Assembly (NCBI GenBank): GCA_902778375.1
Contig: CACYXJ010000024.1
Span: forward strand, 1 to 33,030
Source of the DNA: an uncultured Erysipelotrichaceae bacterium
GTDB taxonomy: Bacteria > Bacillota_I > Bacilli_A > Erysipelotrichales > Erysipelotrichaceae
Direction: 5' to 3'
DNA: 33,030 nt
The notes beneath the pieces were generated by a model. That model searched no databases. It was not told the origin of the DNA and was given only the letters and a program-made list of their open reading frames with translations. How positions within the stretch are numbered: the stretch's first letter is position 1; every line of letters begins with the position of its first letter. Of the stretch, positions 7,444 through 10,002 are shown one piece after another. Made by a program: the position numbers and the translations under genes.

Positions 7444-7481
7444 AGAAAGCCGTCTGTGCGATTTTGCACAGGCGGCTTTTA
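7444..7481. terminator. bidirectional terminator between glnN and the AI-2E family gene
   Basis: Long stem AAAGCCGTCTGTGC (7446-7459) with GCACAGGCGGCTTT (7466-7479), one G-T pair, six-base loop, T-rich on both strands. It overlaps the stop of the minus-strand gene. Confidence 0.88.
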
Positions 7482-8642
7482 CTGTTCCTTGCTTTCCTCT
7501 GACGGGAAGTATATTTTCTTTTCCCTGAGACGCCGGTGGATCCAGTCCTCTGTCAGGGTATAGATGACCGAGAAGATCGGAATGCCGACAAACATACCGA
7601 CAATGCCGAACATGGCACCGCCGATAATGATGGCGAACATGACCCACAGTGTCGGAAGACCGACAGCGTCGGAGAGAATATGCGGACCGATGATATTGCC
7701 GTCGATCTGCTGCAGGACAAGAATGAAGATCATGAATTCAAGTGCCTGGAACGGATCGATGATCAGCAGGATCAGCGTACTCGGCACGGCCCCGATAAAC
7801 GGACCAAAGACCGGAATCATATTGGTGATGCCGACAACGAAGGCGATCAGCGGCGCATACGGCATCTGCATCAGGGTGACGCAGATATAGCAGATCACGC
7901 CGATGATCAGGGAATCCACGAACTTGCCGAAGATAAAACTGTTGAAGGTTCCGGCTGTCAGTTTCATGACATGGACCAGGTTCTCCGCCGTCCCCTGCTC
8001 GAATACGCCGTAGATGAACATCTTGATCTGCCGTTTGAATTTCTCCTCATCGAGCAGAAGATACATGGTTATGATCACGCCGATGAAGAAATTCATGATT
8101 CCCTTGGCAAAGGAAATGGAATATGACAGGATCTGGGCAAGACCGCCCTGCGCACCTGTCAGCCACTCGGTCAGCTTTTCTCCCATCAGTTTGACGCCGT
8201 TGCTGAGGAACTGGGCAATTTCCGGCGCGCCGGAATTGACTTTTTCGATCAGTTCCCGCAGTGTCTGCACATACCCGTCAAAGGATGCGATAAAGATCGA
8301 CAGACTGCTCGCCAGCTGCGGGATCAGGATGGCGAAGAATACGACGATTCCCGCCAGAAGCACGATCATGGCAGCCGCGACACCGACATACCGTTTTGCC
8401 TTCTTTGACCATTTCACGTTTGCCAGCAGATCGTTTTCCACAAACCGCCGCAGCGGGACGGTGATAAAGGCAAAGACAATACCGAACAAAAACGGCGCCA
8501 GTGCCTGCAATGCACTGGAAAAGAAGCCTCCCAGCCAGCGCAGGTTGTTCACCAGCTGGAAGAACAGTACGATGATGACTCCGGAGATCGAGAACGCCTT
8601 GATACTTTCCAGAGTTTCTTCTTTCAGATTCGTAAACTTCAT
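7479..8642 (-). CDS. AI-2E family (PerM/YdiK-type) membrane transporter
   Basis: 387 residues with about eight hydrophobic segments. The family pattern is present: an N-terminal pair of helices, a long central amphipathic stretch (about 115-175) and the C-terminal block F-V-V-G-I-T-N-M-I-P-V-F-G-P-F-I-G followed by G-N-I-I-G-P-H-I-L-S-D-A-V-G-L. The family was named after an E. coli protein linked to autoinducer-2 export, but many members move ions such as Na+ or H+. I would not infer quorum sensing. Monocistronic, with an extended -10 promoter at 8665-8673. Confidence 0.9.
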   Translation of the reverse strand: MKFTNLKEETLESIKAFSISGVIIVLFFQLVNNLRWLGGFFSSALQALAPFLFGIVFAFITVPLRRFVENDLLANVKWSKKAKRYVGVAAAMIVLLAGIVVFFAILIPQLASSLSIFIASFDGYVQTLRELIEKVNSGAPEIAQFLSNGVKLMGEKLTEWLTGAQGGLAQILSYSISFAKGIMNFFIGVIITMYLLLDEEKFKRQIKMFIYGVFEQGTAENLVHVMKLTAGTFNSFIFGKFVDSLIIGVICYICVTLMQMPYAPLIAFVVGITNMIPVFGPFIGAVPSTLILLIIDPFQALEFMIFILVLQQIDGNIIGPHILSDAVGLPTLWVMFAIIIGGAMFGIVGMFVGIPIFSVIYTLTEDWIHRRLREKKIYFPSEESKEQ

Positions 8643-8711: not shown

Positions 8712-8740
8712 TTGACGCTGTAATCATTGGGTGGTTTAAT
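8712..8740 (+). promoter_or_regulatory. sigma-A promoter of the metK leader
   Basis: TTGACG (8712-8717), 17-base spacer, TTTAAT (8735-8740). Predicted start of transcription is near 8747, just before the first strand of the riboswitch P1 helix. Confidence 0.75.
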
Positions 8741-8749
8741 ACATATGTC

Positions 8750-8835
8750 TTTTATCAAGAATGGGATGAGAGAGTCAGCTCTGTGACCCCATACCAACCT
8801 GCATCCGCAAGGTGGTACTGCTGACATCGATAAGG
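8750..8835 (+). promoter_or_regulatory. SAM-clan riboswitch aptamer (S-box-like, SAM-I/IV type)
   Basis: Lies between the metK promoter and metK. P1: TTATC (8752-8756) with GATAA (8829-8833), extended by G-U pairs. The 5' strand continues CAAGA exactly as in classical S-boxes. A P2 arm ATGGG...CCCAT (about 8761-8792) carries a terminal hairpin AGAG-TCAG-CTCT. P3: ACCA...TGGT around CCTGC/GCAAGG (8793-8816). Loop GTCAGC (8774-8779) is perfectly complementary to GCTGAC (8820-8825) in the junction after P3, the pseudoknot expected for SAM-I/SAM-IV RNAs. The P4 stem of classical SAM-I is absent, which points to the SAM-I/IV-like part of the clan. The ligand is presumed S-adenosylmethionine, the product of the gene it controls. 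Confidence 0.78.
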
Positions 8836-8902
8836 AAGAGATTCAAGCACAAATGATACGTCTCTTTCTGAAGATCTTGAAAAGACCGTTTATAGAAAGG
8901 GA
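8834..8902 (+). promoter_or_regulatory. translational expression platform of the metK riboswitch
   Basis: TCTCTTTCT (8861-8869) can pair over nine bases (one G-U) with AGAAAGGGA (8894-8902), which contains the metK ribosome binding site. The same 8861-8868 stretch can instead pair with GGAAGAGA (8834-8841), whose first bases belong to the 3' strand of P1. The two folds exclude each other, so P1 formation on ligand binding should favour hiding the ribosome binding site. No terminator T-run is present, so control looks translational. Confidence 0.6.
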
Positions 8903-8910
8903 CTTTTATT

Positions 8911-10002
8911 ATGGCAAAAACATTTTTCACTTCCGAATCCGTTACCAGCGGACATCCGGATAAGATCTGCGATTACATCGCCGATTCCATACTCGATGAA
9001 GCTCTGAAACAGGACCGCGACAGTCATATGGCCGTCGAAGCGACGATCAAGGACGACCTGATCCTGGTCTATGGCGAAGCCGGCACGAAAGCTGTGCTGG
9101 ATTACGAGAAAATCGCTCTTGATGCGATCCGGGAAATCGGCTATACCGAAGACTATCATGTCATGGTCAAGGTCAACCGCCAGTCGGATGAAATCAACTC
9201 GGCTGTCATCGGCCAGGAAATCGGCGCCGGCGACCAGGGCATCATGTTCGGCTATGCCTGCAGCGAGACCGACAATCTGATGCCGGCAGCGATCCATTAC
9301 GCCCACCTTCTGGCTGCCAGACTGGAAACAGTCAGACGTCAGGATCCCCGTCTGCGTCCGGACGGAAAGACCCAGGTGACCTGTGAATATGATGACGGTG
9401 TTCTGAAACGGATCGACGCCATCGTCGTTTCCACTCAGCATATCGCCGGTATTACCCAGCAGGAACTGAATGATCTGATTATCAATCAGGTGATCCTGCC
9501 GGTTATCCCGAAGGAACTGATCGATGACGATACCGATTATCTGATCAATCCTTCCGGCTCCTTCATTCTCGGCGGCAGCTGGGGTGATTCCGGCACGACC
9601 GGCCGCAAGATCGTCGTCGATTCCTATGGCGGCTATGCGCCGATCGGCGGCGGCTGCTTCTCGTCCAAGGATCCGACCAAGGTCGACCGTTCCGCTGCCT
9701 ACTATGCCCGCTATGTCTGCCGCAACCTTGTTGCCAACGGCCTTGCGGAAAAGTGCCAGCTGCAGCTCTCCTATGCCATCGGTCTGGCCGAGCCGGTATC
9801 CGTTTACATCCAGTCATTCGGAACATCCCGTTTTACCGATGAGGAACTGGGAGAGATCGTCGAAAGCAATTTCAGCTTCCGCGTCTCCGACATCATCAAC
9901 GAACTGAATCTGAAGCGTCCGATTTACCGTTCCACTGTCAATTACGGTCACTTCGGAAAAGACTACCTGCCCTGGGAACAGTTCAAAAAGATTATTTACT
10001 GA
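8911..10002 (+). CDS. metK: S-adenosylmethionine synthetase
   Basis: 363 residues, somewhat shorter than the usual 380-400. Makes SAM from methionine and ATP. Seen: S-V-T-S-G-H-P-D-K (9-17, catalytic His15), G-A-G-D-Q-G-I-M-F-G-Y-A, G-R-K-I-V-V-D and K-D-P-T-K-V-D-R-S-A-A-Y, so the substrate Lys and Arg residues are kept. The usually invariant glycine-rich loops differ: G-G-S-W-G-D-S-G-T-T instead of the G-G-P-x-G-D-x-G-L-T type, and Y-A-P-I-G-G-G-C-F-S-S instead of the x-A-x-H-G-G-G-A-F-S-G type. This marks a divergent MetK branch. Controlled by the SAM-clan riboswitch upstream. Start set by AGAAAGG 11 bases before ATG. Confidence 0.96.
   Translation: MAKTFFTSESVTSGHPDKICDYIADSILDEALKQDRDSHMAVEATIKDDLILVYGEAGTKAVLDYEKIALDAIREIGYTEDYHVMVKVNRQSDEINSAVIGQEIGAGDQGIMFGYACSETDNLMPAAIHYAHLLAARLETVRRQDPRLRPDGKTQVTCEYDDGVLKRIDAIVVSTQHIAGITQQELNDLIINQVILPVIPKELIDDDTDYLINPSGSFILGGSWGDSGTTGRKIVVDSYGGYAPIGGGCFSSKDPTKVDRSAAYYARYVCRNLVANGLAEKCQLQLSYAIGLAEPVSVYIQSFGTSRFTDEELGEIVESNFSFRVSDIINELNLKRPIYRSTVNYGHFGKDYLPWEQFKKIIY

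Follow-up and report, generated by a model that had tools for sequence, protein, structure and literature searches.

In the classical S-box logic, the 3′ flank of the closing helix P1 pairs with the expression platform and acts as an antiterminator. Not all of the RNAs that share the SAM core are built like the S-box (SAM-I) aptamer: P4 is also absent in SAM-IV (PMC6890682), and SAM-I/IV variants have no internal loop in P2 (PMC2864571). Moreover, expression platforms that combine control of transcription and translation have been described by Barrick and Breaker (PMC2258182). The leader considered here lies in a window of 33,030 nucleotides, the whole stretch of DNA that was analysed, from an uncultured gut or rumen member of the Erysipelotrichaceae. 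It is probably a SAM-I-type riboswitch that turns metK off in response to SAM, reduced to P1, P2, P3 and a loop-junction pseudoknot.

The metK gene (8911-10002; this and all features below are on the plus strand unless stated) encodes a methionine adenosyltransferase of 363 aa that scores 474 bits against TIGR01034 (cut-off 309). Together with the SAM-I model match given below, this bears out the preliminary description, which had placed a SAM-clan aptamer at metK. The closest metK outside its own genome, 94% identical, is in a MAG labelled Erysipelotrichaceae, and others are labelled Solobacterium sp. Upstream there is a divergent membrane-protein gene (7479-8642, minus strand) with weak YtvI/AI-2E-transporter matches, and downstream is ileS, also on the minus strand. 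A probable sigma-70 promoter can be read from the sequence (8712-8740: TTGACG at 8712-8717, 17 nt, TTTAAT at 8735-8740), which would put the start of transcription probably near G8747. The same TTGAC/TTTAAT layout, 7 nt ahead of GTCTTTTATC, is common to many leaders of the window's genus. A simple promoter scan did not list the metK promoter, which fell below its threshold with a -10 box that fails the scan's rule. The riboswitch feature is better set as extending from 8747, the probable transcription start, to the metK start codon at 8911.

The aptamer (8749-8836), supported by the Rfam RF00162 and RF01725 scores, our family model R1 and covariation, is a SAM-I fold from which one helix is missing. 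Its 5′ end (8747-8760) carries the P1 5′ strand plus CAAGA (8756-8760) and is also complementary to 8875-8886; by sequence and Rfam alignment the P1 strand UUUUAUC (8750-8756) is partnered by GAUAAGG (8829-8835). P2 (8761-8792) comprises P2a (AUGGG/CCCAU, 8761-8765/8788-8792), P2b (GAG/CUC, 8770-8772/8779-8781) and a kink-turn-type loop (GA 8768-8769, UGU 8782-8784, GA 8785-8786) in which the tandem G.A (GA/GA) and a 3-nt bulge are present by sequence. P3 (8793-8816, arms 8793-8802/8807-8816) contains the SAM-site core CCAACC...GGUGG and, with the Rfam alignment as guide, reads ACC-AA-CCUGC...GCAAGG-U-GGU. The pseudoknot joins GUCAG(C) at 8774-8779 to (G)CUGAC at 8820-8825 over 5-6 bp; the three nucleotides AUC (8826-8828) then stand where P4 is missing, and P1 follows. 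All of the elements first proposed, namely P1, the CAAGA entry, P2, P3 and the loop-junction pseudoknot, as well as the lack of P4, could be located in the sequence. Single-sequence folding of the leader gave an unremarkable energy (z = -1.8) and a minimum-energy structure that is not the aptamer. This free fold uses a local pairing of UCUUUUAUC (window 8748-8773) with GAUGAGAGA, possibly an early co-transcriptional competitor of P1.

The aptamer precedes metK in more than 30 genera, and we have aligned 54 such leaders from the Erysipelotrichaceae, 19 of the genus-level set and 35 from other genera (L043, labelled Holdemania, proved to belong outside the genus-level set). In this alignment 94.5% of the cells are paired and 14 of the 28 pairs change on both sides; covariation beats 500 of 500 column shuffles on each of five measures, a statistic that is inflated by the kinship of the leaders, as are the permutation and z values given below, since shared ancestry makes the sequences less independent than these tests assume. 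Sliding the partners by 1-3 columns drops the pairing to 29-52%. P2, P3 and the pseudoknot all covary, the P2a pairs varying on both sides. For the pseudoknot, 99.6% of the cells are paired and three of the five pairs change on both sides, giving variants such as GUCAGC/GCUGAC, GUUAGC/GCUAAC, AUUAGC/GCUAAU and UUUGGC/GCCAAA. The covariation that had been called for among metK leaders is thus found in the pseudoknot, P2 and P3; the outer P1 pairs, examined across genera, show none (permutation z +0.6), and the inner P1 pairs hardly vary. P4 is absent from all 54 leaders, its place being taken by a linker of 3 nt in 53 of them and of 4 nt in the other. The kink-turn retains its A in 54/54 and its G in 50/54, so that one sheared G.A is kept in the relatives and the second is variable.

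The family model R1, built from 17 leaders of the window's genus, gives the window leader 105.1 bits (as a member of the training set) and matches 206 of the order's 315 genomes, covering 48 of its 79 genera; among the matches listed, every one lies in the window's family. Other families of the class are also matched, more weakly. The sister family of the same order has SAM-I RNAs with P4 and, among its members listed as searched, no R1 match. Some MAGs of the Erysipelotrichaceae (L045, L047, L054), whose metK is 61-67% identical, lack an S-box motif within the 260 bases that precede the gene. At L007, one genus-labelled genome (G012) has a CCUAUGAAGAG-type aptamer and a terminator in front of a metK of a different kind, 38% identical, possibly the consequence of horizontal transfer or of contamination.

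Aligned to the numbering of PMC3764141 and PMC6890682, the SAM site is strongly conserved: the equivalents of A6, U7, C8, G11, A12, C44, A45, C47, G56, U57, G58, A87 and U88 are found in 54/54 leaders, those of A9, A10 and A46 show few changes among the 54, and the pairs C44-G58 and C47-G56 are kept in all. The one consistent departure is in the P3 pair adjoining the SAM site, where G43-C59 has become C-G in every leader, a flip that is compensated. This accounts for the divergence of AUACCAACC from the classical GGCAACC that had been noticed at the outset. As positions 57-59 lie within 5 Å of SAM in SAM-I (PMC6890682), an invariant C43-G59 could conceivably mean that the aptamer senses some other ligand. 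We consider this exceedingly improbable, since the remaining contact positions are kept and the RNA stands before metK throughout, its relatives preceding MetN-type ABC-transporter ATPases.

With respect to the Rfam classes, SAM-I (RF00162), whose cut-off is 44.4 bits, scores 44.0 at 8749-8836 (E = 4.7e-9, 311 bases searched). This is the sole Rfam match in the 270-base gap ahead of metK, and SAM-I is matched nowhere else in the genome. The proposed comparison of models gives SAM-I and SAM-I/IV (RF01725, 39.9 bits, cut-off 41.1) both just under their cut-offs, and SAM-IV (RF00634) no match at E up to 10 in the searched stretch. Genus-mates score 34.9 to 58.5 bits with SAM-I, several above the 44.4 cut-off, and relatives reach 66.6 (L126) and 59.3 bits (L131). 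The near-miss with RF01725 and the lack of P4, as in SAM-IV, might suggest a SAM-I/IV or SAM-IV riboswitch, in which the SAM core is joined by a second pseudoknot between the P3 loop and the 3′ tail. This seems very unlikely: SAM-I scores higher, P2 carries the internal loop that the SAM-I/IV variants lack (PMC2864571), and the P3 loop, which ranges from ~2 to >10 nt across relatives with no constant sequence, leaves PK-2 without a constant partner. The SAM-I/IV assignment first put forward has accordingly been dropped for its sub-threshold score and the P2 loop, and SAM-IV for the absence of a model match and of the conserved P3 loop, PK-2 and P5 that define it. Judged from its sequence, the metK leader is a P4-less SAM-I RNA and not SAM-I/IV or SAM-IV, because the SAM-site residues are nearly all conserved, there is covariation in P2, P3 and the pseudoknot, and none of the aligned leaders has P4.

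Downstream of the aptamer, the anti-Shine-Dalgarno strand GUCUCUUUCU (8860-8869), which corresponds to the 5′ arm of the terminator in other genera, pairs with the Shine-Dalgarno AGAAAGGGAC (8894-8903), which is followed by a U-tract, UUUUAUU (8904-8910). This masking helix has 10 bp, one more than the nine bases of the ribosome-binding-site mask originally recognised (in the window, z = -3.5; 19 leaders together give Stouffer -9.4, and another 25 give -8.1). It covaries, and within the genus own pairs beat exchanged ones (permutation z -4.8). The competing partner that had been seen beside P1 is also confirmed, with covariation. It is the stretch 8833-8842 of the P1 3′ strand and its flank (8829-8842), which pairs with 8860-8869 to give an antisequestor or antiterminator helix, hereafter helix B (Stouffer -8.4; permutation z -7.0 across genera), and which overlaps P1 by only ~3 nt (8833-8835).

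Each of the 33 metK leaders examined from other genera carries an intrinsic terminator ahead of the ribosome binding site, and in these leaders the P1 3′ flank pairs with the expression platform. No separate terminator was found in the window's genus. There, the masking hairpin runs directly into the U-tract, and the spacer between Shine-Dalgarno and AUG is 82% U, versus 17% elsewhere (p 3e-9). In genera such as L112, L115 and L143 the terminator 5′ arm looks like the window's anti-Shine-Dalgarno strand CUCUUUCU. Given the U-tract behind the masking hairpin and the separate terminators of the 33 leaders, it appears that the terminator has been fused to the ribosome binding site, the Shine-Dalgarno replacing the terminator 3′ arm and the U-tract being retained. 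For the same reasons the window's genus may employ both transcriptional and translational control. A terminator scan listed nothing on the plus strand, the loop of the masking hairpin (~24 nt, containing the anti-P1 element described below) being too long for it and unusual for an intrinsic terminator. The initial view of a translational switch, unlike the terminator-based S-boxes, was correct as to the masking; it overlooked the terminators in the family and the U-tract on the masking hairpin itself.

The leader's first bases, GUCUUUUAUCAAGA, are complementary to a second downstream element, UCUUGAAAAGAC (8875-8886, against 8747-8760), directly before the Shine-Dalgarno, which the preliminary description had overlooked. 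In the window taken alone this anti-P1 duplex is modest (p 0.038), and L080 and L044 of the genus pair weakly; nevertheless, the best duplex is found at the same place, ~20 nt before the AUG, in 19/19 leaders, and near the same distance in nearly all of 25 further ones. Helix B and the masking helix already give a complete switch, and it could be argued that only the P1 3′ flank switches, the classical S-box logic having simply moved to the ribosome binding site, the 5′ complementarity arising incidentally from shared ancestry and from segments rich in U or in A/G. Within the genus the 5′ strand hardly departs from GUCUUUU, so that few changes can be tested. We nonetheless find this simpler platform unlikely in view of composition-preserving shuffles and of the own-versus-foreign permutation, in which the 5′ strand pairs better with the downstream region of its own leader than with those of others (z -5.9 for 33 leaders of distinct genera, -3.2 within the genus); toward the P1 3′ flank the same 33 leaders show no such preference (z +0.6). 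There are also compensatory changes: in L081 the 5′ end AUCACG is matched by CGUGAU downstream, in L096 GUCUUCU goes with AGAAGAC downstream and GAUAGAG in P1 (one base changing along with both partners), and further cases occur in L112 and L115. Finally, under the same test, 21 P4-bearing leaders of the sister family show no anti-P1 (p 0.975), although the canonical antiterminator is strongly positive in them. In L113, L127, L141 and L142 the 5′ strand instead fits the terminator 3′ half. These pairings suggest that both P1 strands can be captured downstream, either freeing or masking the ribosome binding site.

We would therefore picture the two-strand switch as follows. With its ligand, which we infer to be SAM, P1 (8750-8756/8829-8835) and the pseudoknot would form, leaving 8860-8869 to pair with the Shine-Dalgarno at 8894-8903 and to keep ribosomes off; the masking hairpin would probably also terminate transcription, since the U-tract comes after it. 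Without SAM, 8833-8842 would pair with 8860-8869 and the 5′ end (8747-8760) with 8875-8886. The two helices would form together; anti-P1, lying around helix B and crossing the mask, would on topological grounds exclude both P1 and the mask, leaving the Shine-Dalgarno open. The computed energies, which count neither the pseudoknot nor the ligand, are -49.6 kcal/mol for the ON ensemble, -51.5 for the masked one and -46.5 for P1 plus mask; the ON and masked ensembles are thus within 2 kcal/mol of each other. For the family as a whole, the balance of evidence tilts toward a three-way-junction SAM-I aptamer in which both P1 strands switch, the 3′ strand to the terminator or anti-Shine-Dalgarno arm and the 5′ strand to a site before the Shine-Dalgarno or to the terminator 3′ half, one genus having turned the terminator into a ribosome-binding-site hairpin.

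Other P4-less SAM-I-like RNAs occur elsewhere. A second one, CCAUAAAGAGA...CAGCAACC...GGUGCUAA.GCUUG...AUGG, stands before small proteins (none of the nine scanned reaches a Pfam cut-off), both in the same genus (L017, L018, L024, L025, L026, L072) and in other families (L161, L163, L165, L169, L172-L174). It also precedes GltX-like (L164) and PriA-like (L167) starts, and genome G323 has five matches. In other Bacilli families, L156, L157, L158 and L160 carry P4-less SAM-I-like RNAs with the pseudoknot UAUAGC/GCUAUA, which precede ABC-transporter ATPases that are probably MetN-like.

Many P4-less relatives pass the Rfam cut-off and so are already annotated as SAM riboswitches. Our literature search for P4-less SAM-I RNAs or a second switching strand found nothing relevant among the papers it covered; the apparent novelty lies in P4 being lost consistently across a family, and in the second switching strand. 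A SAM-I fold that is functional, or at least conserved, in a whole family without P4 bears on the role of this helix. The leaders of this one gene also offer a natural series from a separate terminator to one fused with the ribosome binding site, and they suggest a strand-exchange design that captures each of the two strands of the closing helix.

Compared with described systems, the window RNA shares with SAM-I (RF00162) the SAM core, P1-P2-P3, the kink-turn-type P2, the L2-J3/4 pseudoknot, the position at metK and the P1 3′ flank as switching strand; it differs in having no P4 and hence a three-way rather than four-way junction, in the flipped P3 base pair, in a longer pseudoknot and in a downstream partner for the 5′ strand too. 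SAM-IV (RF00634) has the core, PK-1 and the absence of P4 in common with it, but the window RNA has no PK-2, P5 or model match. With SAM-I/IV (RF01725) it shares the core, but has the P2 internal loop and PK-1 and no PK-2. The Xanthomonas SAM-I Xcc riboswitch (PMC7270179) likewise combines a SAM-I aptamer with anti-SD/SD masking and no separate terminator; its aptamer has P4, and neither a U-tract after the masking hairpin nor capture of the 5′ strand was noted for it. In the dual attenuators (PMC2258182), too, the ribosome binding site forms part of the 3′ arm of a hairpin resembling a terminator; the window's hairpin, a putative terminator, has a loop of ~24 nt that holds anti-P1.
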